Assembly: GCF_000717715.1 (NCBI RefSeq)
Contig: NZ_JOAI01000048.1
Span: 1 to 64,000 of the forward strand
Length of the DNA: 64,000 nucleotides
Reading direction: 5' to 3'
DNA from: Streptomyces sp. NRRL B-24484
Lineage (GTDB): Bacteria > Actinomycetota > Actinomycetes > Streptomycetales > Streptomycetaceae
Shown here piece after piece: positions 1-16,141 of the stretch. A program made the position numbers and the translations under genes. The notes under the pieces were generated by a model. It was not told the origin of the DNA, searched no databases, and was given only the letters and a program-made list of their open reading frames with translations. Positions within the stretch are counted from its first letter, which is position 1. Every line of letters starts with the position of its first letter.

Positions 1-96
1 ACCGACCCGAAGCCCTATGTGTGGACCAAGACCGCCGACGACATCCTCGAACGCCTCGCCGGATATCTGAAGCGAATTCCAGACTCAGGACACTAG
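1..96 (+). CDS. IS630-family transposase, C-terminal end (partial)
   Basis: Frame 1 is open from the window edge to a TAG at 94-96 and encodes 31 residues ending KRIPDSGH, with VWTKTADDILERL before it. This is the characteristic C-terminus of actinobacterial IS630-family DDE transposases (typically PFVWTKTADEIL...RISDSGH). The rest of the element lies to the left, so I cannot tell whether the IS is complete. The stop overlaps the stop of the convergent dioxygenase-like gene, leaving no room on this side for a terminal inverted repeat outside the neighbouring gene. It is therefore either a remnant or an element whose end lies within that gene. Confidence 0.75.
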   Translation, partial: TDPKPYVWTKTADDILERLAGYLKRIPDSGH

Positions 97-1019
97 CGGC
101 CGTTCTTGTCCGGGTCGACGGCGAGGGTGATGACGCCGAGGTGGCCGTCGCCGTCCTCGGTGATCTTCAGCAGCATGTCCGCGCGGTAGATGCTGTCGCC
201 GTCGTTGAAGGTGTCGCGGCCCGTGTGCGCGGCGTAGGGCTGCTTCGCCAGGACGGCCGAGTTGAGCTTCTCGTCCATCATCAGCTGGGTGGTGAGGGTG
301 CGTTCGTCGTTCACGTGGACCATGGCGTGGACGTGCACGGTGCGGCCGGAGTACCAGCCGGGCCAGATGGTGGTGAAGGAGACGATGCCGTTCCTGCCCG
401 TCACCTGGGCACCGCGCAGGTAGCGCTCGTCGTCCTGCGGTACGAGGTCGGCCTGGCTGCCCCCGCCTCCCTGAGCACCGCCTCCACCACCGGCACCACC
501 GGCACCGCCCGGGGCTCCCGACGGCGGTGGCCCGGACGGCGGCGTGCCGCCCGGTGCCCCGCCGGGCGCACCGCCGGGGGCACCGCCGCCGCCGGCGGAG
601 AGCGCCTCGGCACCGGAGTAGTGGCCGGCCGCGTCGCAGTGCCAGATCTCCACCACCGCGTCGGGCAGGGCCTTGCAGCTCTCACTGTCCTGGACGCGGA
701 TCGCCAGCCGGAGCCGGGAGCCCTCGCGGTCCTCGCGGATGTCGGAGCGCACCTTGTCGGCGTCGAAGTAGTACGGGCCCTGGGTCGTCGAGGGCGAGAG
801 GGTGCAGGTGTTGGCGCCGGCGAACAGGCCGGCCAGGTCGGCCGTGCCGGTGGCCTGCGGCGAGACGGTGACGCTCGCGCCGTCGGTGGCGGTGGCCGTG
901 GTGGTGCTGCCGCCGCCCCGGCCGCAGGCGGCGAGCAGTGCACCGAGGCCGATGCTGCCGAGCCCGGCGAGCGCGGTCCGCCGGCTGACCCGCCGGCCCT
1001 CGTCGTGGTCGATGTCCAT
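93..1019 (-). CDS. Tat-exported intradiol ring-cleavage dioxygenase-like lipoprotein
   Basis: 308 residues. The N-terminus has a twin-arginine motif (SRRTALAGL) and a lipobox ending LAAC, so the protein is probably Tat-exported and lipid-anchored. The body matches the catechol/protocatechuate intradiol dioxygenase fold: TTQGPYYFD, then EIWHCDAAGHYSG, then WYSGRTVHVHAMVH. The latter two supply the Tyr and His residues expected to bind non-haem Fe(III). Secreted members of this family are common in streptomycetes and their substrate is generally unknown. A Gly/Pro-rich insert of about 50 residues (GGAPGGAPGG type) separates the two halves and is unusual in length. The gene ends against the transposase fragment. 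Family confident, substrate unknown. Confidence 0.85.
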   Translation of the reverse strand: MDIDHDEGRRVSRRTALAGLGSIGLGALLAACGRGGGSTTTATATDGASVTVSPQATGTADLAGLFAGANTCTLSPSTTQGPYYFDADKVRSDIREDREGSRLRLAIRVQDSESCKALPDAVVEIWHCDAAGHYSGAEALSAGGGGAPGGAPGGAPGGTPPSGPPPSGAPGGAGGAGGGGGAQGGGGSQADLVPQDDERYLRGAQVTGRNGIVSFTTIWPGWYSGRTVHVHAMVHVNDERTLTTQLMMDEKLNSAVLAKQPYAAHTGRDTFNDGDSIYRADMLLKITEDGDGHLGVITLAVDPDKNGR

Positions 1020-1098
1020 GCCACGATGCTGGGCCGCGCGGATGAGACCCGGCTGTGGACACGCTCGACCGGCGATGAGAAGGCGGTCCGCGGCGCGG

Positions 1099-1602
1099 CT
1101 AGCCCACGGCGGTCGCGCGGGAGGGTCCCGCGGGCTGCGCCGGCCGGCCCGCCGCGGCGAGGGCGCGCACCTCCGTCTGCTGTTCGGGGGTGAAGCCGCG
1201 CTTGAGGACCGGGGTGAACAGCCTCGGTGCGTGGTACAGCAGGAAGAAGTCGGCGGTCTCCACGAACCGGACGGCCCACCAGGCCGTCTCCGTCGTGTGG
1301 CCGGGCCGCCGGAGGGTCACCCCGGTGTCCGTGACGGTGACCTCGACCGGCTCGGACGAGGGCGGTGTCTGGTCCCGGACGGCCGTCCTGGTACCGACGG
1401 TGAGCATGCCCAGCGCGACCAGGCCCACGGCGAGGGACATGCCGCCGTAGACGGGCTGACGCAAGAACCGGACCTCGACGACGCCGAGCGCCGACATGAG
1501 GGCGCACAGGGCCCAGGCCTTCCGCCGCTGCTTCGCGGTGCCCTGTCGGAAGGCTCGCGCGCGTTCCTGCGGCGTGATCTCGTACTCGGCCGTGATGTGC
1601 AT
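1099..1602 (-). CDS. YcxB-like two-TM membrane protein
   Basis: 167 residues starting MHITAEYEITPQE. After a short N-terminal region it has two closely spaced hydrophobic segments (about residues 29-43 and 53-70), then a soluble beta-rich domain with TVTDTGVTLRRPG, FVETADFFLLYH and a terminal KRGFTPEQQTEVRALA element. This layout is that of YcxB-like proteins, small membrane proteins of unknown role. It lies 62 bp downstream of the GH114 gene on the same strand and could be the last member of that transcript, but nothing in it suggests a polysaccharide function. Confidence 0.7.
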   Translation of the reverse strand: MHITAEYEITPQERARAFRQGTAKQRRKAWALCALMSALGVVEVRFLRQPVYGGMSLAVGLVALGMLTVGTRTAVRDQTPPSSEPVEVTVTDTGVTLRRPGHTTETAWWAVRFVETADFFLLYHAPRLFTPVLKRGFTPEQQTEVRALAAAGRPAQPAGPSRATAVG

Positions 1603-1664: not shown

Positions 1665-2612
1665 TCAGCAGGGCTGCCGCCAGGCGTCGAGCTCCAGGTG
1701 CTTGGTCATGGAACTGAGGCCGATCTCGCGGCTCTTGGCGCAGTACTGCGCGTTGGGCGTCTTGTACTCCACGTGGAAGACGGCCTTGCCGGCCGCGATG
1801 AAGGGCTTGAGGGCGTCGCACTCGTCGAACTCGGCGCACTGCTCGTTGACGGCGAAGTCGAAGTCGCCGACCAGGGCCGGGATCTGGTCGAGGTCGTTCT
1901 TGAGGCCGACGGCGAGGCCGCGGTCGTGGGCGAGCTTGGCGATGGCCTTGTTGTAGGCGAGCTGGTCGTTGGCGCTGATCTGGAATCCGGTGTCGGCGCG
2001 GTAGTTCTCGACCAGGTCCGGTTCGACGCCGTCGAAGCCCTTCTCGCGGCACATGTCGAAGCGCTTGGCCATCAGCGGCAGCAGCACGTCCGTGCGCCGG
2101 ATGTCCAGCGAGGACTCGCCCTTCCAGCCGTTGGCCCCGCCGAGGACGGTCTTGGGGAAGGCCTTGGCGTCGGACCGGTAGTCCTCGTAGGCGCCGACGT
2201 TGACGTAGCAGATGACCTTGCGGCCCTTGGCGTGCAGCGCGGCGACCGTGGCGGCGTCGTTCTCGAAGCCGTCGATGTCGTAGACCGGCACGTCGACGCC
2301 GGTGTCGACGCGGCCGTCGAGCTGCCACTGCCAGGCGGTGCGCGGGGCGGGCTGCCACCGGCCGGCCGTGGTCGGCCGGCCGCCGGTCGGGCTGCCGGAG
2401 GGGGCGGTGTCGTTGCCCGGGGTCGGCGAGGTGCTCGCCGAGGGGCCGCCGCTCGCACCGGTGGACCCGGACGGCGCGGGGTTCGCCGTGCCGGACGGCG
2501 CCGCGGTGGGCTCGTCCTGGTCGGGGCCGTCGTCGTCGCCCCCGCCGGAGCACCCGGCGAGGGCGAGCAGCAGGGCGGCCGCGGCGAGGGCGGCGGGGTG
2601 GCGGCGGGTCAT
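1665..2612 (-). CDS. GH114 endo-alpha-1,4-polygalactosaminidase-like lipoprotein
   Basis: 315 residues from ATG at 2612; the longer upstream reading frame belongs to the preceding gene, and the start lies in an ATGA overlap with its stop. Signal peptide with lipobox LALAGC, then a Thr/Ser/Pro-rich linker to about residue 70, then a GH114 TIM barrel: WQWQLDG, VYDIDGFEND (candidate catalytic Asp), KVICYVNVGAYEDYR, GFDGVEPDLVENY (candidate catalytic Glu), GLKNDL. GH114 enzymes cleave alpha-1,4-linked galactosamine polymers, and PelA carries a related hydrolase domain. Here the hydrolase is a separate lipoprotein, encoded at the 3' end of a PelF-containing cluster. The likely job is trimming or releasing the exopolysaccharide made by this locus. 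Confidence 0.85.
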   Translation of the reverse strand: MTRRHPAALAAAALLLALAGCSGGGDDDGPDQDEPTAAPSGTANPAPSGSTGASGGPSASTSPTPGNDTAPSGSPTGGRPTTAGRWQPAPRTAWQWQLDGRVDTGVDVPVYDIDGFENDAATVAALHAKGRKVICYVNVGAYEDYRSDAKAFPKTVLGGANGWKGESSLDIRRTDVLLPLMAKRFDMCREKGFDGVEPDLVENYRADTGFQISANDQLAYNKAIAKLAHDRGLAVGLKNDLDQIPALVGDFDFAVNEQCAEFDECDALKPFIAAGKAVFHVEYKTPNAQYCAKSREIGLSSMTKHLELDAWRQPC

Positions 2613-3322
2613 GGGTCGGTCTCCGTCCGGGTGGGCGTGAGGGCGGCGGGCCCCGCGAGGGCCGGTGTCAGGGCCGGCGACAGCGTCCGCCAGGGGTTGT
2701 CGCCGTCGCCCGGTGTCGCGTAGTGGACGGCGGCGCCGCGCAGCCTGGCCTCGCGCGGGACGGCGCGCAGCCGGCCGGACGGCACGCCGTGCACGAGGTG
2801 GCAGAAGAGCTCCGGCGGGTGGTCGGCCGTCCACCGCGGTACGGGTGCCGCCTCGTACGCCTGCCAGTCTCCCTCGAAGGTGACCAGCAGGTCGGCGACC
2901 CCGCCGTCGGCGTAGGCCGGGTCGGGGTGGGTGCCGTGGCCGAGGACGACGCTCGCGCAGCCCAGGGCGCGGGCGGCGACGGTGAGCCGCCGCTGGTAGG
3001 GCAGGAACGCCGGGTGGGTGCACGCCTGGTCGAAGTAGACGCCGTCGGTGCCGTACCAGGCGCGGTGGCGCTGGAGGTCCTCGACGACGGCGGCGTGCGG
3101 GCGGCGGCCGTAGTCGGTGTCGACGTAGCCGAGGATGCGGACCCCGGCCTCGCGGAGTTCGGCGACGGGTTCGGCGAGCACCGGGTCGGGCGCCTCCCCG
3201 GGGCCGTCGGCGGCGTTGACGACGACGCCGTACAGGCGCGGTGCGGCCCGGACGAGGGCCCGCCAGGCGGACGGGTCCTCGGCCGGGTGCACGTAGAGCG
3301 GTACGAGCAGGCGCTCCTCCAT
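2609..3322 (-). CDS. spherulation-specific family 4 (spherulin-4-like) protein
   Basis: 237 residues, ATG at 3322, sharing one base with the stop of the upstream epimerase and coupled by ATGA to the GH114 gene. Features typical of the spherulin-4 family: N-terminal LLVPLYVHP, GVVVNAADGPG, ILGYVDTDYGRRP, WYGTDGVYFDQAC and VLGHGTHPDP. This is a small TIM-barrel fold related to GH114-type glycosidases. No signal peptide is visible, so unlike its neighbour it would act in the cytoplasm or use a non-classical route. Association with polysaccharide loci suggests a role on GalN/GalNAc polymers or their precursors, but the reaction is unproven. Confidence 0.8.
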   Translation of the reverse strand: MEERLLVPLYVHPAEDPSAWRALVRAAPRLYGVVVNAADGPGEAPDPVLAEPVAELREAGVRILGYVDTDYGRRPHAAVVEDLQRHRAWYGTDGVYFDQACTHPAFLPYQRRLTVAARALGCASVVLGHGTHPDPAYADGGVADLLVTFEGDWQAYEAAPVPRWTADHPPELFCHLVHGVPSGRLRAVPREARLRGAAVHYATPGDGDNPWRTLSPALTPALAGPAALTPTRTETDP

Positions 3323-4254
3323 CAGGCGGCGCGCCCCTGGGTGTCGTTCGGGCCGGCCGCCGCGGCGGCCGTGAGGCCGTGCCAGAGGTCGGCCAGCGAC
3401 TCGGCGAGCGTGATCCGCGGCTCCCAGCCCAGGGCGCGGGCGGTGGAGATGTCGGCCTGCTGCCAGGAGACGGCGGCGGAGCGCTCGGAGCCCGCGCCGT
3501 GCTCCTCGATCCGGCCGCCGAACCGTGCGGCGGCGACCAGGGCGTCGGCGACGGCGCGGACGGGGCGGGCCTCGCCGCCGGCGACGTTGACCACCGGGGG
3601 CAGCGGGTGGGCGGCGGTGAGGGCGGCGCCCACCGCGCGGGCGACGTCGCGGGCGTCCACGAAGTCGCGGTGCGCGGAGAGGTCGCCGACGGTGACGGTG
3701 CCGTCCGGCCCGGCCCGGTGGAGTTCGGCGGCGAGCCGGCCGGCCAGCGAGGTGCCGGGCGCGCCGGGGCCGATCGGGTTGAACACCCGCAGCACGACGG
3801 CGTCCTGGCCCTTGGCGGCGGCCTCGGTGACGGCCAGGGTGCCGGCGAGCTTGGTGGCGCCGTACAGGCCGCCGGGCCGGGCGGCGGCGGTCTCGGCGAG
3901 CGAGGTGCCGTGTTCGCAGGCGCCGTACTCGGCGGCGGAGCCGAGGTGGACGAGCCGGGTGCCGGGCAGCACCGCGCGCAGGGCGGCGGCGAGCACGGCG
4001 GGGCCGCGGGCGTTGAGGCCGGTCTGCAGCAGGGCGTCGCCGGTGACGGCGCCGGCGCAGTTCACCACCGCGGCGGGGCGGAGGTCGGCGAGCAGCGCGG
4101 CGAGGCCCTCGACGGTCTCGTTGGCGAGGTCGATCCGCAGGTCGGCGGAGGAGGAGTGGCCGGCGCGGAGCACCCGCGCACCGGGGAAGGTGCGCAGGTG
4201 CTCGGCGATGTGGCCGCCCAGGAAGCCGGTGGCTCCGAGGACGAGGACGTCCAT
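3322..4254 (-). CDS. NAD-dependent sugar epimerase/dehydratase (extended SDR)
   Basis: 310 residues. N-terminal Rossmann motif GATGFLGG, VNCAGAVTG, a SAAEYG segment and the SDR catalytic Tyr-Lys pair in YGATK, then VFNPIGPG and HRDFVDARDVARA, all typical of nucleotide-sugar epimerases and 4,6-dehydratases. It sits three bases downstream of the nucleotidyltransferase and overlaps the spherulin-like gene, so it belongs to the same transcript. In Pel-type loci a UDP-GlcNAc C4-epimerase can supply UDP-GalNAc. This gene or the LegB-like one could do that, but the exact sugar cannot be read from sequence. Confidence 0.85.
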   Translation of the reverse strand: MDVLVLGATGFLGGHIAEHLRTFPGARVLRAGHSSSADLRIDLANETVEGLAALLADLRPAAVVNCAGAVTGDALLQTGLNARGPAVLAAALRAVLPGTRLVHLGSAAEYGACEHGTSLAETAAARPGGLYGATKLAGTLAVTEAAAKGQDAVVLRVFNPIGPGAPGTSLAGRLAAELHRAGPDGTVTVGDLSAHRDFVDARDVARAVGAALTAAHPLPPVVNVAGGEARPVRAVADALVAAARFGGRIEEHGAGSERSAAVSWQQADISTARALGWEPRITLAESLADLWHGLTAAAAAGPNDTQGRAA

Positions 4255-4257
4255 GGG

Positions 4258-4971
4258 TCAGGCACCCCGCAGCAGCAGGTCGCGGTTCTCGCGGAAGTCG
4301 GCATTGGCCCGGTCGTAGTCGTCGGGGCGGCCGATGTCCAGCCAGTAGCCGTTGAACTCGTAGGCCTGGGGCGGGGTTCCGGCGTCCAGCAGGTCGAGGA
4401 CGAGGTCGTCGAAGCCGAGCGGCTTGCCGGGGGTGTAGCGGGTGAGGGTGGTCTTGGAGAGGCCGTAGACGCCCATCGAGACGTGGTAGTCCATGCTGGG
4501 CTTCTCGCGGAACTCGGTGACCCGGCCCTGCTCGGTGGTGAGGACGCCGAAGTCGATGTTGACCTTGCGGGCGTAGGTGGCGATGGTGAGCGGTGCCTCG
4601 GCGTCGATGTGCTGCTTGAGGACGTCGCCGTAGGCGAGGTCGGTGAGGACGTCGCCGTTCATGACGAGGAAGTGCTCGGGCAGGGTGTCGAGCATGGTGA
4701 GCAGCGGGCCCATGGTGCCGAGCGGGGTCTCCTCGGTGGTGTAGGAGACGTCCATGCCCCACTGCGACCCGTCGCCGACGTAGGCGCGGATGATGTGGCC
4801 GAGGTGGCCGATGGCGAGGGTGCAGCTCTCGAATCCGGCCGCGACGAGCTGGCGCATGACGATCTCGAGGATGGCGTGCTGGTCGCCGATGGGCACGAGC
4901 GGCTTGGGCAGCGCGGTGGTGTACGGGCGCAGGCGGACGCCCTTGCCGCCGGCCAGGATGACAGCGTGCAT
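4258..4971 (-). CDS. sugar-phosphate nucleotidyltransferase
   Basis: 237 residues. It starts MHAVILAGGKGVRLRPYT with the nucleotide-binding signature LAGGxGxRLxPxT and a PKPLVPIGD lysine motif, followed by MNGDVLTDL (metal-binding Asp) and a C-terminal GYWLDIGRPDDY. This is a single-domain NTP-transferase like RmlA, GalU-like or GDP-mannose pyrophosphorylase-type enzymes, without the C-terminal left-handed beta-helix of GlmU. It would activate a sugar-1-phosphate for the glycosyltransferase encoded upstream. It lies 41 bp after the LegB-like gene and 3 bp before the epimerase. Confidence 0.87.
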   Translation of the reverse strand: MHAVILAGGKGVRLRPYTTALPKPLVPIGDQHAILEIVMRQLVAAGFESCTLAIGHLGHIIRAYVGDGSQWGMDVSYTTEETPLGTMGPLLTMLDTLPEHFLVMNGDVLTDLAYGDVLKQHIDAEAPLTIATYARKVNIDFGVLTTEQGRVTEFREKPSMDYHVSMGVYGLSKTTLTRYTPGKPLGFDDLVLDLLDAGTPPQAYEFNGYWLDIGRPDDYDRANADFRENRDLLLRGA

Positions 4972-5012
4972 GCTGGTGCTCCTTGTCTGTGTGCGGTGGT
5001 GGCGGGCGCGGA

Positions 5013-6020
5013 TCAGACGTTGTACAGGTCGGTCTTGTAGCGGGCCAGGTTGGCCGGGTCGCGGAAGAACTCGATGGTGTGCAGCAGGCCCTCCTCCAGG
5101 GAGTGGGCGGGGGCCCAGCCGGTGGCCTCGCGCAGCCGGGTGGCGTCGGCGACCAGGCGCATGACCTCGGAGGCGGCGGGACGGATGCGGTCGGTGTCCT
5201 CACGGACCGTCAGGTCGGCGTCCATCAGCTTGCCGACCAGGGTGACCAGGTCGCCGACGGAGATCTCGCCGCCGGTGCCGGCGTTGAAGGTGCGGCCGAC
5301 GACCTGCTCGGCGGGGGCGGTGCCGACGGTCGCGAACGCGGCGGCGGTGTCCTTGACGTAGAGGAAGTCGCGGGTGGGGCGGAGGTCGCCGAGGGTGATG
5401 GTGCGCTCCCCCGCCGCGACCTGGCCGATGACGGTCGGGATGACGGCGCGCATGGACTGGCGCGGGCCGAAGGTGTTGAACGGACGGAGCGTCACCACGG
5501 GGGTCTCGAAGCTGGCGTGGTAGCTGTCCGCGAGCCGGTCGCCGCCGGCCTTGGAGGCCGCGTACGGGGACTGGGTGTTGATCGGGTGGTCCTCGGTGAT
5601 CGGCACGGTCTGCGCGGTGCCGTAGGTCTCGCTGGTGGAGGTGTGCACCAGGCGCGGGATCTCCAGGTGGCGGACGGCCTCCAGCACGTTGAGGGTGCCG
5701 GTGACGTTGGTCTCCACGTAGGAGTGCGGGGCCTGGTACGAGTACGGGATCGCGATGAGCGCGGCCAGGTGGTACACCGCGTCGGTGCCCTTGACCAGGC
5801 CGGTGACCGAGCCCGGGTCGCGGACGTCGCCGAGCACGATCTCCACGTTGTCCAGGACGTCCCGGTCCAGGGTCTCCAGCCAGCCGAACGAGGAGAAGGA
5901 GTTGTACTGGACCATGGCGCGGACCCGGTGGCCGTCGGTGACGAGCTTCTCGACCAGGTGGGAGCCGATGAAGCCCTCGGCTCCGGTGACGGCGGCGGTG
6001 GTGGCGGTGGTGCTGCTCAT
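5013..6020 (-). CDS. LegB-like NAD-dependent nucleotide-sugar 4,6-dehydratase
   Basis: 335 residues from ATG at 6020; the longer upstream frame has no RBS and looks non-coding. N-terminal TGAEGFIGSHLVE Rossmann motif, AMVQYNSFSSFGWL, HLAALIAIPYSYQAP, HTSTSETYGTA and YAASKAGGD (catalytic Tyr/Lys). This set is characteristic of the LegB group, dehydratases acting on UDP- or GDP-GlcNAc. No other legionaminic-acid genes are nearby, so I read it as supplying a modified amino sugar or acting as an epimerase for the PelF-type polymer. 140 bp separate it from the membrane-protein gene upstream, containing only GC-rich sequence and a long-range inverted repeat. Confidence 0.85.
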   Translation of the reverse strand: MSSTTATTAAVTGAEGFIGSHLVEKLVTDGHRVRAMVQYNSFSSFGWLETLDRDVLDNVEIVLGDVRDPGSVTGLVKGTDAVYHLAALIAIPYSYQAPHSYVETNVTGTLNVLEAVRHLEIPRLVHTSTSETYGTAQTVPITEDHPINTQSPYAASKAGGDRLADSYHASFETPVVTLRPFNTFGPRQSMRAVIPTVIGQVAAGERTITLGDLRPTRDFLYVKDTAAAFATVGTAPAEQVVGRTFNAGTGGEISVGDLVTLVGKLMDADLTVREDTDRIRPAASEVMRLVADATRLREATGWAPAHSLEEGLLHTIEFFRDPANLARYKTDLYNV

Positions 6021-6160
6021 GGGCGAGCCTCCGGTGGTGTGGACGTGTGGGTGTGGCCGGCGGGCCCTCGGACGGGGCGCGCGGTGGGGGGTACGTGGGT
6101 GCCGTCGGTGCGGCACGGGCCCGCCGGGGCGGGCTGCGCGTCAGCGGGGCGCGGTGCGCC

Positions 6161-7735
6161 TCATCTGTGCGCGGTGATGCGGCCGGTTCTGGCGCGGGCG
6201 ACGAGCACCATCGCGCCCACGGCGAGGCCGGTGACGGCGAGTCGGGCCGGGGTGGCCCAGGCCGGCTGCAGCGCGCCGGCCGTGCTCTCCGCGGCGGCGG
6301 CCGCGGTGCATATCAGTGCGGGCGGCCAGACGGCGCCGAAGACCTGGAGCAGCAGGGCCGTCCAGAGCAGGGCGCCGAGCAGCAGCAGTCCGCCGAGCTG
6401 GACGGGGCCGGGGAGGGCCCGGGTCCAGAGCAGGGCGGCGCCGGTGCCGAGGGTGGCCAGAACGGTGAGGTAGCCCGCGATGAGCCTGACGAGCGTGCGG
6501 TCGGTGCGGTTGCGGAACTGGTCCGCGGTGGTGCTGGTGTGCAGCGCCGTCACCGACCGGCTGCGGAACCGGAAGAGCAGCCATTCGGCGAGGCCCATGC
6601 TGAGGGTCAGCGCGACGGCGGCGGAGGCGCCGCCGGGCACGGCGGGCCGCCAGGGGTCGCCGAACGAGGCGGTGATCACCAGCGCGCCGACCGCGAGGCC
6701 GAACAGCCCGTGCGGCAGGCTGTCGGCGAGCGGCACGCCCGCCTCCGGCGTCTTGTCGCCGGCCCTCAGCCGCTGCCCGATCTCGATGCCGGCGAAGACG
6801 GCGGCGAGGGCGAGCGACAGGGCGGGGCCGGCGATCCGCAGCCAGTTCGGCAGGTCCACCACGAGGGTGGCGGCCGCGCCGGCCGTGGTGGGCGCGAGCG
6901 CGCCCATCAGCCGCTTGGCCCGGCGGGTGACCAGCAGCACGGTGGCCGAGGCCAGGTAGAGCGACTGCCCCGCGGCGAACAGCAGGACGGCGGTGTCCGC
7001 CCCCGCGAGGGCGGCCGCGCCGGTGCCGAGCGCGGTGGCGGTGAGACCGCCGCGCAGCAGGCTCCGGCCGACCGCGGCCCGGGCTCCGAGCGAGCGCCAG
7101 GCGTAAGCCCGGTGGGCGAGCGCCTGGTTGAGGCCCCAGCCGACCAGGGCGGTCAGGGCGAGGGCGCTGCCGGCGCCGCCGGACTGCAGGAAGCGTGCGG
7201 TCGGCAGGTAGGCGAGGCCGGGCAGGGCGAACAGCAGGCCCCGCAGCACGGTGCGCAGCGGGTCGGCCTGCCAGGGGTCGTGCGGCTCCGGCGGCGCGGG
7301 GTGGCGCCGCTCGGTGCGGGCGAAGAGCTCCTCGGCGATGGAGAAGGAGTCGGTGCGGCCGTAGCGGACGGCGGCCTGTTCGTCCGTCAGTCCGTCGGAC
7401 TCGAGGACGGCGGCGATCTCGAAGGGGTGGACGGCGCGCGCGCAGACGTCGGCGAGCCGTTCGGCGAGTTCGTCGAGCGGGTCCTCGGGCAGCGGGACGG
7501 GCTCGGCGGAGCCGCGTCCGGCCGCACCGGGCTCGACGATCCGCAGGGCGAGCGTCTCGTCGGGGTTGTGCCGGGTGCCGGCGGCCTTGCCGGTGAGCTC
7601 CTCGGGCGGCGGGACGCGCAGGGCGAGCGTCTCGTCCGGCTTCGCGGCCTTCTTGCGGCGGGCCGGCGGCAGTTGCAGGACGACGGTGTCCTCGGGGCGC
7701 GGCCCGTCCTCGGAGAGGTTCAGCAGGGTGCTCAT
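6161..7735 (-). CDS. polytopic membrane protein, candidate PelG-like partner of the glycosyltransferase
   Basis: 524 residues from ATG at 7735, which lies in an ATGA overlap with the stop of the PelF-like gene, so the two are translationally coupled. About 150 N-terminal residues are soluble and contain three short similar motifs: PEDTVVLQLP, PDETLALRV and PDETLALRI. The remainder has roughly eleven or twelve hydrophobic segments, for example LLFALPGLAYL, LALTALVGWGLNQAL, SLALAAVFAGIEI, AVALTLSMGLAEWLLF and LLLLGALLWTALLL. I do not recognise the family. Position and topology fit the Pel-system membrane partner PelG, a twelve-TM protein working with PelF, but no PelG signature is obvious. That assignment is inference. 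Confidence 0.75.
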   Translation of the reverse strand: MSTLLNLSEDGPRPEDTVVLQLPPARRKKAAKPDETLALRVPPPEELTGKAAGTRHNPDETLALRIVEPGAAGRGSAEPVPLPEDPLDELAERLADVCARAVHPFEIAAVLESDGLTDEQAAVRYGRTDSFSIAEELFARTERRHPAPPEPHDPWQADPLRTVLRGLLFALPGLAYLPTARFLQSGGAGSALALTALVGWGLNQALAHRAYAWRSLGARAAVGRSLLRGGLTATALGTGAAALAGADTAVLLFAAGQSLYLASATVLLVTRRAKRLMGALAPTTAGAAATLVVDLPNWLRIAGPALSLALAAVFAGIEIGQRLRAGDKTPEAGVPLADSLPHGLFGLAVGALVITASFGDPWRPAVPGGASAAVALTLSMGLAEWLLFRFRSRSVTALHTSTTADQFRNRTDRTLVRLIAGYLTVLATLGTGAALLWTRALPGPVQLGGLLLLGALLWTALLLQVFGAVWPPALICTAAAAAESTAGALQPAWATPARLAVTGLAVGAMVLVARARTGRITAHR

Positions 7736-9336
7736 CCGGCGGCTCCGACGGCGGAGCGGGCGGCGCCGGCCTCGGCGGTCTCCGGCTGGGAGGGCGACCA
7801 CCAGTCGAACGGGCCGTCGTCGCGGGCGGTGCGGAAGCGGTCGCGGCGGTCGAGCTCGCTGTAGATGTCGCGGAAGGAGTCGATGGTCTGGCGCAGGGTG
7901 AACTGCTCGATGACGCGCATCCGGGCGCCGCGGCCCATCTCGGCGCGGCGGTCGGAGTCGCGGAGCAGTTCGAGCGCGGCCTTGGCCATCGCCGCGGGCT
8001 CGCGCGGCGGGACGACCAGGCCGGTGTCGCCGACGGCCTCGCGGACGCCGCCGACATCGGTGGAGACGGTGGCCCGGCCGCAGGACATCGCCTCGATGAG
8101 GGTGAAGGGGAAGCCCTCGCTGATGCTGGACAGCATGACGACGTTGCCCGCCGCGTAGGCGTCGCGGATGTCGTCGACCCGGCCCTCGAAGACCACGGCG
8201 TCGCCGATGCCGAGGTCGGCGGCGAGGGCCTCGCAGCGCTCCCGGTAGGCGGCGCCGCCGGCGGGGGTGCCGCCGAAGAGCCGCAGCCGGGCACCGGGTA
8301 TCTCGGCGCGGACGATGCCGAAGGCCCGGATCAGCGTCTCCAGGTCCTTGATCGGGTCGACCCGGCCGGCCCAGCTGAGGGTCGGCACCTCGGGCTCGGG
8401 TCCGGCGGGCGGGAAGGCCTCGGGGTCGACGCCGTTGTACACGGTGCGGATGCGCTCGGCGGGGGTGCCGGCGCGCTCCTCCCAGCGGCGGTTGTAGCGG
8501 TTGCCGGGGGTGACGAGGGCGGCGCGGGCGTAGCTCTCGACGGCGAGCATCCGGTAGAAGCCCAGGACGAGCGCCTTGACCGGCCAGGCGTAGCCGGTGC
8601 CGTAGCCGAGGTAGCGCTCGCGCAGGTAGATGCCGTGCTCGGTGAGCAGGAACGGGGTGCCGTGCAGGTGGTTGCCGACCAGGCCGGGCAGTGCGGCGAG
8701 GCCGCCGCTGACGGCGTGCAGGACGCCGCCGGGCTTGGGGTGCGCGGCGAGGGGGCGCAGCGCGTGCTCCAGGAGCTCGGTGGCGGTCAGCGCGTCGTGC
8801 AGGCTGGGTCTTGCGGCGGCGGTGGCGAGGTGGGGGCGGTTCCAGACGTCGGCGAGGACGCGCAGGGCGGCCTCGGAGCGCAGCGCGGGGCTGAGCCGGC
8901 CGGCCCGGGCGTGGTCGGCGAGGACGTACAGCTCAGGCCCGAAGGCGTCCTCCTCGGTGGGGTCGAGGAGGGAGAGCAGGAAGCGCTCGTAGCCGGTGAG
9001 GAAGGCGCGCATGGCGGCGCCCCTGGGTGCCTGGCCGGGTGGGGCGGGGCCCCAGAGCGGGACGGCGCGGACGTCGGTCACGTGGCCGGGGAGGTCCCAG
9101 GAGAGGGGCTGCCCGGCGGTGCCGGTGATGGCGATGACCCGGAACTCGATCTCCGGCATGCCGGTGACGAGCTGGTCGCACCAGACGCTGACGCCGCCGT
9201 GGCTGTGCGGGTAGGTGCCCTCGGTGAGCATGGTCACGCGGGTGCCGACCAGGTGCGCGAGGTCGGCCGGGCGTGTCGCGCCCGGCGCGTCGGGCTCGGT
9301 CCCGGCCGCGGGCACGGCGTGCAGACGTGTGTTCAT
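7732..9336 (-). CDS. pelF: PelF-type GT4 glycosyltransferase
   Basis: 534 residues. The N-terminal donor-side region matches the PelF/DUF3492 type (TEGTYPHSHGGVSVWCDQL, TEHGIYLRERYL), followed by GT-B/GT4 motifs: TVYNGVDPEAF, SWAGRVDPIKDL, RLFGGTP, VVFEGRVDD and the EX7E motif in SISEGFPFTLIEAM. PelF is the cytoplasmic UDP-dependent polymerase that makes the GalNAc/GlcNAc-type Pel chain. It is the first gene of the minus-strand run that continues into the membrane protein, dehydratase, nucleotidyltransferase, epimerase and hydrolases. A strong hairpin at 9405-9441 separates it from the deacetylase-like gene upstream. Homology to PelF-type enzymes is confident; the actual polymer is not known. 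Confidence 0.85.
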   Translation of the reverse strand: MNTRLHAVPAAGTEPDAPGATRPADLAHLVGTRVTMLTEGTYPHSHGGVSVWCDQLVTGMPEIEFRVIAITGTAGQPLSWDLPGHVTDVRAVPLWGPAPPGQAPRGAAMRAFLTGYERFLLSLLDPTEEDAFGPELYVLADHARAGRLSPALRSEAALRVLADVWNRPHLATAAARPSLHDALTATELLEHALRPLAAHPKPGGVLHAVSGGLAALPGLVGNHLHGTPFLLTEHGIYLRERYLGYGTGYAWPVKALVLGFYRMLAVESYARAALVTPGNRYNRRWEERAGTPAERIRTVYNGVDPEAFPPAGPEPEVPTLSWAGRVDPIKDLETLIRAFGIVRAEIPGARLRLFGGTPAGGAAYRERCEALAADLGIGDAVVFEGRVDDIRDAYAAGNVVMLSSISEGFPFTLIEAMSCGRATVSTDVGGVREAVGDTGLVVPPREPAAMAKAALELLRDSDRRAEMGRGARMRVIEQFTLRQTIDSFRDIYSELDRRDRFRTARDDGPFDWWSPSQPETAEAGAARSAVGAAG

Positions 9337-9404
9337 GGATTCCCCCCCAGGAAATCCCGCCCCCGGGCAGGCGGGCGGTGGTGGTGCGCGTGGTGCTGGC
9401 CGGT

Positions 9405-9441
9405 GCCCCGGGCCGGGGAGGGTCGCTCCCCGGCCCGGGGC
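9405..9441. terminator. 16-bp GC-rich stem-loop between deacetylase-like gene and pelF
   Basis: A perfect 16-bp inverted repeat (9405-9420 pairs with 9426-9441) closes a five-base loop GGTCG. It lies in the 133-bp gap between the 9470-11731 gene (stop at 9470) and the PelF-like gene (start at 9336), both on the minus strand. There is no U-tract, as is usual for streptomycete terminators. It probably terminates or partly attenuates transcription leaving the upstream gene, setting its level apart from the pelF operon. Confidence 0.7.
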
Positions 9442-9469
9442 GTCCGACGGCGGTCGCCGTCCGGTCGGA

Positions 9470-11731
9470 TCAGCGGGTGCTGCGGGTGCTGCGGGTTCCG
9501 CCCTTCGTCGCGGTCGACGTGGAGGCGGTGCTCTTGGAGGTGAGCTTGTTGAGCGTGGTGCCGCTCGCGGTCGGCCCGGCCGGGACGGGCGACTTGACGC
9601 CCTTCGGCACCGGGAGGCTCGCGACGGTCTTGGCGATGGCGGTGCGCACGGCCTTGAGGGCCGTCTGCGCGGGCACCTCGCCGGCCGGCAGCTTCAGCGT
9701 GACGTTGACCTGGGTGAGGCCGGGGCCGACCCAGCCGGACAGCTGCCCGGCGTACGCGGAGCCGAAGGCGGTGGAGCCGATCAGCTGCTTCTGGACGGTG
9801 CCGGTCGGCATGGTGGCCTCGGCGAGGACGCCCGAGGGCGCGCTGACGGTGACGGTGTCGCCGATCCGGTAGGCGGTGACCTGGCCGGAGTTGACGGCGT
9901 TCTTCCACGCGGCGCGGCGCTGCAGCTCGACGCCGATGTCCTTCTGGCGGAGGTTCACCAGCGGGGTGTTGGAGGCGTACAGCCCGTCGTACTCGGCGAG
10001 GATGTGCTCCATCACCGGGTAGGCGATGCGGTCCTCGGCGTAGTTCGACTGGTGCACGAAGTGCGGCCGCGGGTCGTTGTTGATCGCCCGGTTGACGGCC
10101 AGTCGGGACTCCAGCGGGACGATGTAGTCGGCGTAGCCGGTGTTCACGTCCAGCGGGGTCGGCAGGCAGGTGCTGGTGGCGGGGTTGTCCTCGCAGATGC
10201 CGCTGCCGCCCTGCGCGCGGGAGGTGTAGATCCAGTTGTACTCGTCCACCTCCTCGACCGTCTTCGCCGCGTTGTAGAAGACGTTGAGCGGGTAGCGCGG
10301 GACGGTGAGGGCGTTGCCGACGGCGCGCTGGTCGTGCTCGCGGGAGGAGTCGCTGGCGAGCCAGCGGGTGCCCGTGCTGTTCACCGACGGCGCCAGGTAC
10401 GGGTTGTCGGTGGGCTGCTGCGGGTTGGTGACCAGGCCGGAGTGCTCGCCGGTGACCAGCTCGGTCTGGTCGGGCGCGGTCAGGCCGTTGTTCGCCGCCC
10501 AGGTGCGGTTGTTGGTGATCTGGGAGGTGATGTCGGCCTGGCTGGTCCACACCGTCTGCCCGCTGGCGTTGGTGGTGCAGCGCCACGGCACCACGGTGGT
10601 GTCCTGCACGCAGCCGAGGAACTGGTGCTGGTAGGTGTGGTTGATCCAGCGGTAGGCGGACTGGTCGGCGATCATCTGGACGGCCAGCGGGTCGGTGCCG
10701 TCGCCGTCGGCCTTGAAGTCCTCCGAGCCGCCGCCGTTGTACGCCAGGTCGACCTTGAAGTTGTGGTCCTGCTGCCACTGCTTCAGGTACTGGGCGTCCG
10801 CGACCGTCATCCGGCTGGGGTGCTCCTCCGGGTTGCTGCCGGGCGGGCAGGTCACGTCACCGGGGGTGCACTTGAGGACGGTGTCCCAGCGGTCGTCCGA
10901 CATGAAGACGTCGTCGACGTGCAGGGCGAAGTAGTTGCGGTCGTAGCCGAGGTGGATGCCCTCGGTGGCCCACTCGACGATGCCGCGGGCGAGCTGCCGG
11001 TACTGCCTCTGGTAGGCGTTGTAGACGAAGGTGACGACCAGTTCGCGGCGGCCGTCGTGGGCGTACTCGCCGACCAGCGAGCCCCGGGTGTCGGTGCCGG
11101 GGATCGGCGCGTCGACGTACGGGGTGAAGGTGGCGCCGGCCGCCTGCTGGGCGAGCGGGGTCGCGATGTATCCGTAGCTCTCGGAAACGGAGGGCGAGTT
11201 GTCCTCGAAGGTGACGCCGCCCTCGAGGTAGCCGAACGGCCCGGACTTGCCGGCGGCGGTCACCTGCGCCTGGACGCCGTCCAGGGTGCCGGCGTAGGCG
11301 CCCGGCAGGGTGCCCCAGTTGAGGCCGACGCTCGCGCCGGCGTAGGTGTAGGCGTCGACCTGGCGGATGCCGAACTGCGCCTCGTAGGAGGCGAGCGCGG
11401 TGAGCTCGTCGCTGCTGAGGCCGGCCGGGCTCTCGCTCGGCATCACCACGGCCTGGAACTTGGCCCGCGGAGCGCCGTTCAGGGTGTCGCTGAGGAAGCC
11501 GGCGGCGATGGTCGGACGGCCCGACGCGGCGAGGTCGATCCGGGTGTACGGCACGCCGGTGCTGTCGAGTTCGGCCACGATCGCGCCGACGGCCGGTCCG
11601 CCGTCGTCGACGACCAGCAGCCGCAGGTCGATCCTGGGGGTCGTGGCCGCGTACGCGCCGGGCATCGGCGCGAGCGTCATGACCAGGCCCGCCACCGTGC
11701 AGGCAGCGGCAATTCGGGCTCTACGCCCCAT
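9470..11731 (-). CDS. secreted PelA-like polysaccharide deacetylase-type protein
   Basis: 753 residues from ATG at 11731, preceded by a good RBS (GGGGGAGGG); the open frame upstream is not coding-like. Signal peptide about residues 1-29 (ends GAYA). Residues 35-255 form an alpha/beta region of unknown type. From about 265 come features of a carbohydrate-esterase-like domain: LHVDDVF (Asp273-Asp274) and NHTYQH (His365 and His369), the Asp plus HxxxH pattern that binds metal in Pel- and NodB-like deacetylases. The C-terminus (from about 700) is a Lys/Ser/Thr/Pro-rich tail, possibly wall-associated. Next to PelF it would partially deacetylate the exported polymer, a step PelA performs in Pel systems. 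The family match is motif-level only. Confidence 0.7.
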   Translation of the reverse strand: MGRRARIAAACTVAGLVMTLAPMPGAYAATTPRIDLRLLVVDDGGPAVGAIVAELDSTGVPYTRIDLAASGRPTIAAGFLSDTLNGAPRAKFQAVVMPSESPAGLSSDELTALASYEAQFGIRQVDAYTYAGASVGLNWGTLPGAYAGTLDGVQAQVTAAGKSGPFGYLEGGVTFEDNSPSVSESYGYIATPLAQQAAGATFTPYVDAPIPGTDTRGSLVGEYAHDGRRELVVTFVYNAYQRQYRQLARGIVEWATEGIHLGYDRNYFALHVDDVFMSDDRWDTVLKCTPGDVTCPPGSNPEEHPSRMTVADAQYLKQWQQDHNFKVDLAYNGGGSEDFKADGDGTDPLAVQMIADQSAYRWINHTYQHQFLGCVQDTTVVPWRCTTNASGQTVWTSQADITSQITNNRTWAANNGLTAPDQTELVTGEHSGLVTNPQQPTDNPYLAPSVNSTGTRWLASDSSREHDQRAVGNALTVPRYPLNVFYNAAKTVEEVDEYNWIYTSRAQGGSGICEDNPATSTCLPTPLDVNTGYADYIVPLESRLAVNRAINNDPRPHFVHQSNYAEDRIAYPVMEHILAEYDGLYASNTPLVNLRQKDIGVELQRRAAWKNAVNSGQVTAYRIGDTVTVSAPSGVLAEATMPTGTVQKQLIGSTAFGSAYAGQLSGWVGPGLTQVNVTLKLPAGEVPAQTALKAVRTAIAKTVASLPVPKGVKSPVPAGPTASGTTLNKLTSKSTASTSTATKGGTRSTRSTR

Positions 11732-12584: not shown

Positions 12585-12989
12585 ATGAAGTACATGCTGC
12601 TGATGCAGTTCAGCGCGGAGGGCACCGAATTCCCGGCGATCACCGAGTGGGCCGAGCAGGACGTCAAGGCGCACATCGCCTTCATGGGCGCCGCCAACGA
12701 GAAGCTGATCGCCGACGGCGAGTTCGTCGACGCCCAGGGCCTGGCCTTCCCGGACAGCGCCAAGATCGTCCGGGCCTCGGGCACCGGCGGCGGCCCGCTC
12801 GTCACCGAGGGGCCCTTCCCGGAGACCAAGGAGTTCCTGGCCGGCTACTGGATCGTCGACTGCGAGAGCGAGCAGCGGGCGATCGAGATCGCCGGACACG
12901 TCTCCGGCGCCCCCGGCCCCGGCGGCGAGCCGCTGAACATGGCCATCCAGGTGCGCCAGGTGATGGCCGCGCCGCCCGTGGAGCTCTGA
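12585..12989 (+). CDS. YciI/DGPF-domain protein
   Basis: 134 residues starting MKYMLLMQFS, with ITEWAEQDVKAHIAFM, DGEFVDAQGLAFP and the family signature TEGPFPETKEFLAGYWIVD (the DGPF-type motif, here EGPF). It folds as a YciI-like alpha/beta barrel. In actinobacteria these proteins are encoded directly before ECF42 sigma factors, as here. They have been suggested to act in the same stress or detoxification response, but no reaction is established. RBS GAGGAGAG precedes the start. Confidence 0.88.
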   Translation: MKYMLLMQFSAEGTEFPAITEWAEQDVKAHIAFMGAANEKLIADGEFVDAQGLAFPDSAKIVRASGTGGGPLVTEGPFPETKEFLAGYWIVDCESEQRAIEIAGHVSGAPGPGGEPLNMAIQVRQVMAAPPVEL

Positions 12990-12990
12990 G

Positions 12991-14241
12991 CTGACCGGCA
13001 CCGGCCCCACCGTCGACGACCTGCTGCGCGAACTCGCGCCGCGGGTCGTCGGCGTGCTCACCCGGCAGTACGGGGACTTCTACGCGGCCGAGGACGCCGT
13101 CCAGGAGGCCCTGCTCGCCGCCGCCGTCCAGTGGCCCGAGCAGGGCCTGCCGCACCACCCGCAGGCCTGGCTCGTCCAGGTCGCCGCCCGCCGGATGACC
13201 GAACAGGTCCGCAGCGAGACCGCCCGCCGCCGGCGCGAGGAGACGGTGGCCGCCCGCGAGCCGGACGACCGCCGCACCGCCCCGGCCGCCGACGAGGACG
13301 GCGCCGCCGACCGCGACGACTCGCTGACCGTGCTCTTCCTCTGCTGCCACCCGGTGCTGACGCCGGCCGCCGCCGTCGCCCTCACCCTGCGGTCCGTGGG
13401 CGGGCTGACCACCGCCGAGATCGCCAGCGCCTTCATGGTGCCGGAGGCCACGATGGGCCAGCGGATCAGCCGCGCCAAGCAGCGGATCAGGACCTCCGGC
13501 GTACCGTTCTCGATGCCCGCCCCCGAGGAACTGCCGCACCGCCTCGACCTGGTCCTGCACGTCCTCTACCTGGTGTTCAACGAGGGCTACGCCGTCAGCA
13601 GCGGAGCCGGCCTGCAGCGCACCGACCTCTCCCGCGAGGCGGTCCGGCTCGCCCGGTCCCTGCACCGGGCCGTCCCCGACAGCAGCGAGGCGGCCGGCCT
13701 GCTCGCCCTGATGCTGCTCACCCACGCCCGCAGCACCGCCCGCACGGGGCCGGACGGCGAACTCGTCCCGCTCGCCGAGCAGGACCGCGGCCGCTGGGAC
13801 GCCGCGGCCGTCGCCGAGGGCACCGCCCTGATCACCGCCACCCTGCCGCGCGGACCGGTCGGCCCGTACCAACTGCAGGCCGCGATCGCCGCCGTGCACG
13901 ACGAGGCCGCCACCGCCGAGGAGACCGACTGGCCGCAGATCCTCGCCCTGTACGGCGTGCTGGAGCGGATCGCCGACAGCCCGGTCGTCCGGCTCAACCG
14001 GGCGGTGGCCGCCGCGATGGTGCACGGCCCGCGGGCGGGGCTCGACCTGCTCGCCCGGCTCGACACCCCCGCGGCGCTGGCCGGGCACCAGCGGCTGTAC
14101 GCGGCGCGCGCCCACCTGGAGGAGATGGCCGGCGACCGGCGGGCCGCCCTCGCCGACTACCACGCCGCCGCGGAACGCGCCACCAACCTCCCCGAACGCC
14201 ACTACCTCACCCTCCGCGCCGCCCGCCTCGCCCCGGACTGA
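12991..14241 (+). CDS. ECF42-type RNA polymerase sigma factor with C-terminal TPR-like extension
   Basis: Conserved coding begins upstream of the first canonical start: residues TVDDLLRELAPRVVGVL lie before the GTG at 13054 and match the normal N-terminus of this family. I therefore place the start at a CTG at 12991, one base after the DGPF stop; the GTG at 13054 is the conservative alternative. Sigma region 2 (YAAEDAVQEALLAAA) and region 4 (LTTAEIASAFMVPEATMGQRISRAKQRI) are followed by a helical extension of about 230 residues typical of ECF42, including HVLYLVFNEGY. These factors have no anti-sigma; the C-terminal extension is needed for activity. 416 residues with the CTG start. Confidence 0.88.
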   Translation: MTGTGPTVDDLLRELAPRVVGVLTRQYGDFYAAEDAVQEALLAAAVQWPEQGLPHHPQAWLVQVAARRMTEQVRSETARRRREETVAAREPDDRRTAPAADEDGAADRDDSLTVLFLCCHPVLTPAAAVALTLRSVGGLTTAEIASAFMVPEATMGQRISRAKQRIRTSGVPFSMPAPEELPHRLDLVLHVLYLVFNEGYAVSSGAGLQRTDLSREAVRLARSLHRAVPDSSEAAGLLALMLLTHARSTARTGPDGELVPLAEQDRGRWDAAAVAEGTALITATLPRGPVGPYQLQAAIAAVHDEAATAEETDWPQILALYGVLERIADSPVVRLNRAVAAAMVHGPRAGLDLLARLDTPAALAGHQRLYAARAHLEEMAGDRRAALADYHAAAERATNLPERHYLTLRAARLAPD

Positions 14242-14325
14242 GCCCGGCCGCGGACCGGGCCGAACCCGGGACGGTCTCAGCCCGGCGAGGGCCCGCGGCC
14301 CGGGCCGGCCGCTAGCCTGGGCCGC

Positions 14326-14985
14326 ATGACGGAGAGCACCGGCACGGGCCACCTCGACACCACCAGGGCCGCCTACGACGCGGTGGCCGTCCAGTACACC
14401 GAGCTGTTCGCCGACGGGTTCGGCGCGCGGCCGCTGGACCGGGCGATGGTCGAGGCCCTCGCCGGGCTGGTGCTGCAGGAGGGCGGCGGCCCGGTGGCCG
14501 ACCTCGGCTGCGGGCCCGGCCATGTGACGGCGTACCTGCACGGACTCGGCGTGGACGCCTTCGGGATCGACGTCTCGCCCGCCATGGTGGCGATCGCCCG
14601 GTCGCGGCACCCGCAGCTGCGTTTCGAGGAGGGGCCGATGCTCGGCCCCGGGCTCGCTGCGGGCTCGCTCGGGGGCATCCTCGCCCACTACTCGCTGATC
14701 CACACCCCGCCGGAGGAACTCCCCGGGGTGCTCGCCGAGTTCCACCGCCTGCTGGCGCCGGGCGGGCACGTCCTGATCGCCGTCCAGTCCACCGACGGCC
14801 CCGTCCCGCCGGTCACGCCCTACGACCACAAGGTCGCACCCGCCTACCGCTGGTGGCCGGACGCCCTCGCCGCGCTCCTTCGTGAGGCCGGCCTCACGGA
14901 GGTCGCCCGGCTGGTCCGCCGGCCGTACGAGGACGAGCGGACCCCGCACGCGCAACTGCTCGCCCAGCGCCCGGCCGCCTGCTGA
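14326..14985 (+). CDS. class I SAM-dependent methyltransferase
   Basis: 219 residues. Motif I VADLGCGPGHVTAYL binds SAM, followed by GIDVSPAMVAIARSRHP and an acidic motif II region. The C-terminal part has LAPGGHVLIAVQS. This is a UbiE/small-molecule type Rossmann methyltransferase; substrate unknown. It ends 8 bp from the convergent phosphotransferase gene. Confidence 0.87.
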   Translation: MTESTGTGHLDTTRAAYDAVAVQYTELFADGFGARPLDRAMVEALAGLVLQEGGGPVADLGCGPGHVTAYLHGLGVDAFGIDVSPAMVAIARSRHPQLRFEEGPMLGPGLAAGSLGGILAHYSLIHTPPEELPGVLAEFHRLLAPGGHVLIAVQSTDGPVPPVTPYDHKVAPAYRWWPDALAALLREAGLTEVARLVRRPYEDERTPHAQLLAQRPAAC

Positions 14986-14992
14986 CACCCGG

Positions 14993-16141
14993 TCACCCTC
15001 CCGCAGCCGCAGCACCCGGTCGGGTTTCGCCAGGCCCGTTTCCACCTGGCTCGCTCACGCCCGCCTCCGCTCCGCCCGCCTCCGTTCCGCCCGCTGCCAG
15101 CCCGTCCAGGACGGCCAGCTGTTCCGTGATCCGGTCGGCGGACCAGGAGAGCAGCCAGGCGGTGTGCTCGGGCGCATAGCCCCGGGGTGCGCTCTCGACC
15201 CGCATGACCAGGGCGAGGTGGATCCGGTAGAGCGCCAGCCGTGCGCGGGCACCCGCGGTGTCGGTGCGCAGGCCGGGGGCGACGCTCCGGTAGCCGGCCA
15301 TCAGGCCGGGATCGTCCTCGGGGCTGCCGAGCGGGTCGAGGCCGACGAGTTCCGCCAGCGGGTCGCCGAAGAAGGCGCGTTCGCCGTCGATCAGGCCGCC
15401 GAGGCGCAGACCGCCGTGCACCGGGTCGGGGGTGAGGACGAGGTTGCCCTCCCAGGCGTCGAAGTGGACGAGCGCGGGTCGGCGCACCTCGGCCAGCGCA
15501 CCGCCGAACCGCACCGGCAGTGCGGCCAGGACGGCGGAGGGGACGGGCAGGGTGACGCCGAAGCGTTCGGCGTCGGCGAGCACCGCGGCCAGCATCCCGG
15601 CGAAGGCCGTCGGCCAGTCGGCGCCCTGCAGGCCGGGGACGGGCCCCGGGTAGCCGAAGCGCGGTCCGGTGGCACCGGCGATCCGGGCGACGGCAGCGCC
15701 CAACTGGCCGCGCAGCAACATTCGCTGATCCTCTGTCAGGCTGTCACGCAGTTCGTCCCAGGTGCGGCCGTCGAGGTGTTCGAGCAGCAGCCACTCGCCG
15801 GCACCGCCCGGGCCGGCCGGTTCGTGGTGCAGGACGGCGGGGACGGGGGCGCCCGTGGCGGCGGCCAGGCGGTGGAAGAGCCGCTCGGTGTCGAGCAGGC
15901 CCTGTTCGTGGGTGAGTGCCGGCGCGTCGGCGGGCGGCGCGGCCTTGAGCACCAGCCGCCGGCCGTCGGCGAGTTCGACCAGCCGTACCGAGTTGTAGAG
16001 CCCGCCGCGCAGGGCCCGCCCGCCGACCACCTCCACCGCCCCGAGCGCCTGCCGGACGCGCCGCTCGGCCAGCTCCCGCGCGGCCCGGTCCCCCTCCGGG
16101 CGGCCGGCCCCGGCCTGCCCCTCGGTCAGTGCGGTGGTCAT
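14993..16141 (-). CDS. aminoglycoside phosphotransferase (APH)-family kinase
   Basis: 382 residues from ATG at 16141; the much longer open frame upstream is non-coding. N-lobe with GGLYNSVRLVELADGRRLVLKAAP (nucleotide-binding Lys), hinge EWLLLEHLDGRTW, then the catalytic loop PALVHFDAWEGNLVL, where HFDxxxGN replaces the commoner HGDxxxxN, and GLIDGERAFFGDPLAEL as the DFG-like metal loop. This is the APH/choline-kinase fold. Actinobacterial members usually phosphorylate unknown small molecules rather than confer resistance. The C-terminus carries a low-complexity Gly/Ala/Glu tail. Confidence 0.83.
   Translation of the reverse strand: MTTALTEGQAGAGRPEGDRAARELAERRVRQALGAVEVVGGRALRGGLYNSVRLVELADGRRLVLKAAPPADAPALTHEQGLLDTERLFHRLAAATGAPVPAVLHHEPAGPGGAGEWLLLEHLDGRTWDELRDSLTEDQRMLLRGQLGAAVARIAGATGPRFGYPGPVPGLQGADWPTAFAGMLAAVLADAERFGVTLPVPSAVLAALPVRFGGALAEVRRPALVHFDAWEGNLVLTPDPVHGGLRLGGLIDGERAFFGDPLAELVGLDPLGSPEDDPGLMAGYRSVAPGLRTDTAGARARLALYRIHLALVMRVESAPRGYAPEHTAWLLSWSADRITEQLAVLDGLAAGGTEAGGAEAGVSEPGGNGPGETRPGAAAAGG

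Follow-up and report, generated by a model that had tools for sequence, protein, structure and literature searches.

The window analysed here, a stretch of 64,000 nucleotides from Streptomyces sp. NRRL B-24484 (genome assembly 8.86 Mb, 186 contigs), contains eight minus-strand genes which, taken together with the sugar-nucleotide cassette in their midst, are probably a synthase-dependent exopolysaccharide operon of the galactosaminogalactan (GAG)/Pel type. That its core product would be a partly deacetylated alpha-1,4-N-acetylhexosamine polymer can be proposed with good confidence; that the cassette furnishes a dedicated NDP-6-deoxy-hexosamine, of QuiNAc or FucNAc type, is a tentative suggestion whose chances we put a little short of even. 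The nearest protein matches are from Kitasatospora, and the genes, in order of transcription (agd3, pelF, tm, dehyd, ntp, sdr2, sph, gh114), are as follows.

9470..11731, minus strand: agd3, Agd3-like secreted polysaccharide deacetylase of CE18/CBM87 architecture, 753 aa
7732..9336, minus strand: pelF, PelF-type GT4 glycosyltransferase, 534 aa (NF038011 PelF 171.8 bits, cut-off 100)
6161..7735, minus strand: tm, 12-helix membrane protein with an N-terminal helical domain, likely the polymer export partner, 524 aa
5013..6020, minus strand: dehyd, LegB-like NDP-hexosamine 4,6-dehydratase, cassette gene 1, 335 aa (TIGR04180 453.4 bits)
4258..4971, minus strand: ntp, sugar-1-phosphate nucleotidyltransferase, cassette gene 2, 237 aa (NTP_transferase 138.5 bits)
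3322..4254, minus strand: sdr2, SDR resembling 4-keto-6-deoxy-sugar reductases, cassette gene 3, 310 aa (2pk3 112.3 bits)
2609..3322, minus strand: sph, spherulin-4/Sph3-like (GH135-type) protein with no clear export signal, 237 aa (Spherulin4 109.3 bits)
1665..2612, minus strand: gh114, GH114 (Ega3-like) endo-alpha-1,4-galactosaminidase with a lipoprotein-like N-terminus, 315 aa (GH114 283 bits)

Overlaps join pelF to tm (4 nt), sdr2 to sph (1 nt) and sph to gh114 (4 nt), the remaining gaps being 3-140 nt. In all this, Pfam/NCBIfam scores and coordinates agree with the initial annotation, which had described the eight-gene run with its families, order and overlaps, and had placed separate hydrolase and deacetylase-type genes at its opposite ends. 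The operon is followed downstream (window 93-1602) by a YcxB-like gene and by one with a Dioxygenase_C domain, whose product starts like a lipoprotein; on the upstream side (12585-16141) a gene with a YCII domain is accompanied by a sigma-70-type factor (DUF6596), and a methyltransferase and a phosphotransferase of the APH family are also encoded there. A scan upstream of agd3 for a BldD box, with what we take to be its consensus, gave no clear enrichment (two or fewer mismatches in 45 of 79 loci against 198 of 395 mononucleotide shuffles).

Is the polymer then Pel itself? A true Pel operon, with PelA split in two and PelD/PelE lost, would fit the 534-aa protein, which is well over the equivalog cut-off for PelF (DUF3492 193.4 bits, cut-off 23.3) and whose residues R325, K330, E407 and E415 are identical in 80 of 80 relatives, and would also fit its membrane partner, which by structure comparison has a MOP-type fold, PelG being presumably a member of the MOP superfamily. 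The 6161-7735 product, for which the initial annotation had looked to PelG, resembles it no further: the protein has no Pfam match, PelG (PF16933) has no match anywhere in the genome, and profile comparison by hhalign, with only three rows on the PelG side, gave a probability of 0.1. On these grounds an identity with PelG was rejected. A Pfam scan of the eight operon proteins recognised neither PelD nor PelE, and also no second glycosyltransferase; the polymerase takes the form of two overlapping genes, pelF and tm, and not of a single transmembrane glycosyltransferase such as Gtb3. Elsewhere in the same genome (L009:8628-12282, G000 contig C44) there is an agd3-free trio consisting of a PelF-like GT4 (DUF3492), a shorter protein that shares the N-terminal domain of the membrane partner, and an SDR resembling cassette gene 3; all five of the other family loci inspected (L186-L190) have such a trio, and matches to that N-terminal domain occur in many family genomes in a class survey of 394.

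The deacetylase also seems to speak against Pel. In structure comparison the 753-aa protein, from a model of moderate confidence, resembles Agd3 over most of its length, so that the anticipated likeness to carbohydrate esterases was found, and on that model it is nearer to Agd3 than to PelA. The reading of the locus as PelA divided between two genes is thereby disfavoured. The protein itself stays below every Pfam cut-off (CBM87_Agd3 15.2 bits against 27.6), two relatives, L145 and L143, score above both Pfam cut-offs for Agd3, and a PDB sequence search with it, or with its 20-sequence family profile, gave nothing useful, the profile retrieving no chain. Its CE18 motifs CM1-CM4 (Asp-Asp, HxxxH, Arg, His), equated by motif order and the published list, are kept in 81 of 81, in keeping with a GAG-cluster deacetylase of Agd3 type. 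Just 40 of 80 Agd3-like proteins passed a secretion test based on our own hydrophobicity script, which often clips the start, and clipping is probably the cause of that half rate. As CE18 and Spherulin4 proteins are parts of GAG clusters, a true Pel operon is an improbable account. The polymer foreseen in the initial annotation, Pel-like, partly deacetylated and of GalNAc type, is sustained in its GAG/Pel-type core by families, residues and synteny, and its being Pel proper is made improbable by the Agd3-like CE18 enzyme and the missing PelG.

The two hydrolase-type proteins belong to the same GAG-cluster set. The GH114 protein (Pfam cut-off 27) matches Ega3 (6ojb, E 4.4e-53) and keeps D199 and E257 in 63 of 63, as an Ega3-type hydrolase should; the spherulin-4 protein (cut-off 30.2) matches Sph3 (5c5g, E 1.4e-11) and keeps the catalytic Asp and Glu, D98 and E150, in 70 of 70, residue 99, where Sph3 has Glu beside the catalytic Asp, being Q in 51 and R in 19 of the 70 aligned. 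The spherulin-4 domain begins close to the N-terminus: among 66 called orthologues its LLVPLY-like first motif is at residue 3 in 13, within the first 20 residues in 51 and never beyond residue 59, and the called start falls inside the domain in five. A search of residues 1-60 for a strongly hydrophobic segment, a rough test since starts were chosen by a simple script, was positive in 4 of 66 spherulin-4 proteins, 53 of 61 GH114, 40 of 80 Agd3 and 0 of 79 PelF proteins. From its sequence the spherulin-4 protein is apparently cytoplasmic; fungal Sph3 is membrane-bound and probably acts where the polymer exits the synthase, according to the available text of PMC12054363. Three galactosaminogalactan-active enzyme families side by side could also be a weapon or a means of feeding, the secreted deacetylase and hydrolases attacking fungal GAG or foreign Pel, but the operon also has a GT4 of polymerase type, a protein with an exporter fold and genes for sugar nucleotides, and its spherulin-4 protein lacks a clear export signal, all of which makes this very improbable.

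How general is the arrangement? An Agd3-like protein was found in 153 of the 297 family genomes sampled (E 1e-30) and in 13 of 396 genomes across the phylum (E 1e-10), six of the 13 being the genome itself and its family. The loci compared, the best 80 of 505 matches, are therefore biased towards close relatives; among them all eight genes occur in this order in 51, and agd3, pelF, tm, dehyd, ntp and sdr2 in order in 66, one more ORF being called between pelF and tm in two of the 66. The six-gene run is followed by sph and/or gh114 in 65 of 66, and by both in order in 51. Since the same order recurs so often, it is beyond chance, and the neighbourhood comparison to which the initial annotation had pointed bears out the gene order. 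Seven of the 80 reach a contig edge after tm, leaving 73 informative by our own gene caller; the cassette trio is together in 67 of these and absent from five, and one locus (L053, Streptomyces philanthi) is degenerate. Three of the five (L052, L079, L091) have the cassette-free form agd3-pelF-tm-sph-gh114, and L070 and L086 are without sph as well as without the cassette. L022 has the cassette and neither pelF nor tm: there (L022:10001-15987), and in L105, where those two are also missing, the dehydratase gene directly follows agd3. L139, of another family, combines agd3, pelF, sph and gh114; at its tm position stands a 440-aa protein without a match. The ortholog profiles for tm and sph were built on window columns, L141 and L142 were read by profile hits only, and L208 gave no gene calls. 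At L207:221-11038, a locus of another family, agd3 is divergent from gh114, tm, pelF and a gene weakly resembling the dehydratase, and some genomes have two or three Agd3 matches (e.g., G131, G153, G163), with three in some of the window's genus. In another actinomycetote lineage (L143:3459-11139) a gene for true PelG (475 bits) and one resembling pelF adjoin an Agd3-type CE18 gene and a spherulin-4 gene whose product has a signal-like N-terminus, a Pel/GAG hybrid operon whose layout L144 repeats by profile hits.

What the cassette makes is approached through its three enzymes. The window dehydratase falls just under the curated LegB cut-off of 475, its next family scoring 177, and all of the 10 dehydratases scanned of 69 matched LegB (best E 7.5e-139; next family best 1.6e-52). 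Its T-S-E aligns with the T-D-E site of DesIV (1r66) and is conserved in 69 of 69; as T-S-E is also found in UDP-glucuronate decarboxylases, the motif alone cannot settle the reaction. At this place 6dnt and 6wjb are without a Glu, but so is Pal (6bwl), the second-best PDB match, which belongs to a known pair of 4,6-dehydratases, and on this count too the motif is not decisive. The nucleotidyltransferase (Pfam cut-off 21.2), as a profile of 10 of 69 sequences, had as its best PDB matches mannose-1-phosphate guanylyltransferase beta (113.9 bits) and a UTP-glucose-1-phosphate enzyme (108.1), so that the bases are not discriminated. For sdr2 (profile of 12 of 68) the best PDB match is the GDP-6-deoxy-4-hexulose reductase 2pk3, the next scoring 91.8 bits, and S106, E109, Y110, Y131 and K135 are kept in 68 of 68. 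LegB dehydrates GDP-GlcNAc, as given in the available text of PMC7439481. The simplest joint reading of these sequences would take NDP-HexNAc by way of NDP-4-keto-6-deoxy-HexNAc to NDP-6-deoxy-HexNAc, of whatever base and stereochemistry, and the three extra sugar genes may change the polymer's building blocks. The operon SDRs score 139.4 and 21 bits with the galE model (cut-off 262.3), by which alone a UDP-Glc(NAc) 4-epimerase like Uge3 was sought in the operon; two galE over cut-off are elsewhere in the genome. In another family (L145:7813-17575) agd3-pelF-tm-nucleotidyltransferase-SDR is continued by genes for a UDP-sugar dehydrogenase and a further SDR, which take the place of the dehydratase; the precursor module, it seems, is not the same in every lineage.

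Some genomes have it both ways. In the class survey of 394 genomes, 44 of them with a match, two long membrane-protein matches were found in 10, and in the nine of these for which both operon places were fetched, one operon is with the cassette and one without (9 of 9). All nine are of one genus, and the pairs are therefore due to shared inheritance and not to nine events. On the near-chromosome-sized contigs of four (G122, G033, G076, G080) the cassette operon is near a contig end, at 0.04-0.08, and the other at 0.72-0.76. The cassette operons of three of the nine pairs are without a whole agd3 (none called in L196 and L202, a fragment only in L204) and their genomes have one Agd3 match each, so one secreted deacetylase may serve both operons. 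In a PelF tree (47 of 91 rows) the two types are separated by one change, SH-aLRT 99, while the Agd3 tree has two; these were thinned to 32 of 76 and 30 of 74 cassette rows, respectively, with all 15 cassette-free rows. In an earlier PelF tree with distant outgroups and every second cassette row, the cassette-free rows formed two clades plus L139, the long-branch rows being unsure. Type-separating columns at 90%, with 15 cassette-free rows, number seven in PelF, two in sph and none in agd3, tm or gh114 (an earlier PelF count, under a slightly different rule, gave four with six cassette-free rows, among them L085, whose locus breaks off at a contig edge and which was assigned by its kin). Of the PelF columns T357, I390 and T412 are, by GT4 structures, presumably near the donor cleft. 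So few separating columns speak, as far as alignments go, for a similar backbone in both operon types. They could be read, together with the apparently shared deacetylase and the two galE genes that could supply UDP-GalNAc, as meaning that an ordinary GAG/Pel polymer (GalNAc/GalN) is made, with the cassette sugar serving only for minor decoration, a cap or another glycoconjugate. That is a distinct possibility, though not one we would expect, as it has to face a cassette inside the operon in most informative loci of the best 80, no recognised second glycosyltransferase among the eight genes, and a PelF lineage that tracks the cassette.

Keeping to the preferred reading, in which the cassette sugar enters the chain, how might the parts work together? 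Starting from the families and folds of the proteins, their conserved catalytic residues, the synteny and the two operon types, we infer substrates, export direction, product and sites of action thus: in the cytoplasm PelF would polymerise an NDP-N-acetylhexosamine, the membrane protein of MOP fold coupled to it would export the chain, and the secreted Agd3-like CE18 enzyme would partly de-N-acetylate it, leaving it cationic and sticky, with the GH114 lipoprotein trimming deacetylated stretches and the apparently cytoplasmic spherulin-4 protein perhaps trimming or clearing acetylated chain inside. The cassette would probably make NDP-6-deoxy-hexosamine for incorporation into this operon's polymer, and the cassette-free sister operon of some relatives would draw on housekeeping UDP-GalNAc. 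Carried further, paralogous operons could give a streptomycete cell two chemically distinct GAG-type cationic polymers, one of GalNAc/GalN type fed by housekeeping metabolism and one with a cassette-supplied 6-deoxy-hexosamine backbone (6-deoxy-GalNAc or 6-deoxy-GlcNAc), with a cytoplasmic GH135-type enzyme inside the membrane; this conjecture is conceivable but on balance doubtful.

Hyphal pellets hamper the industrial use of streptomycetes (PMC5972031, in the text available), and the Agd3-like protein, present in about half of the family genomes sampled, would mark a candidate matrix polymer for them, of which no experimental study was found in the literature searched; nor did the text available there mention a cassette conserved in this way, a cassette-free operon alongside it or a spherulin-4 protein lacking an export signal. 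The cassette gives a clear chemical prediction, and should a 6-deoxy variant prove to be the product, the cationic biofilm polymers would gain a new member, on which the specificity of GAG- and Pel-degrading enzymes could be tested. The operon also bears on the published idea of a bacterial origin of the fungal GAG cluster, transfer from bacteria to fungi being discussed in PMC7229062.

The core operon is already known in kind, because of precedents in that paper and in Bacillus cereus. Bamford et al. 2020 (PMC7229062) give Agd3 homologues in 45 bacterial species, and their agd3 operons likewise have a cytoplasmic glycosyltransferase, a multi-spanning membrane protein and GH114, with spherulin-4 beside agd3 in some Actinobacteria; in its passages on these operons neither a dehydratase/nucleotidyltransferase/reductase cassette nor a coexisting second operon is mentioned. 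The B. cereus pelDEADAFG operon (PMC7112168, as far as its available text goes) similarly has PelF and separate deacetylase and hydrolase genes, whereas in the window there is no PelG family match, PelD/PelE are not recognised in the operon, and a CE18-like enzyme replaces PelADA. With the GDP-GlcNAc 4,6-dehydratase (LegB) step of the legionaminic acid pathway the likeness is that of the dehydratase family score (453 against 475), but the window operon has no recognised aminotransferase or later genes, its dehydratase being paired with a reductase-like SDR. The Aspergillus fumigatus GAG cluster (uge3, gtb3, agd3, ega3, sph3) has the same Agd3-type CE18, GH114 and spherulin-4/GH135 enzymes and a glycosyltransferase with a membrane part; in the window, by contrast, synthase and membrane part are encoded by separate genes, the spherulin-4 protein shows no clear signal for export, and a three-gene cassette stands in place of the galE-type 4-epimerase.
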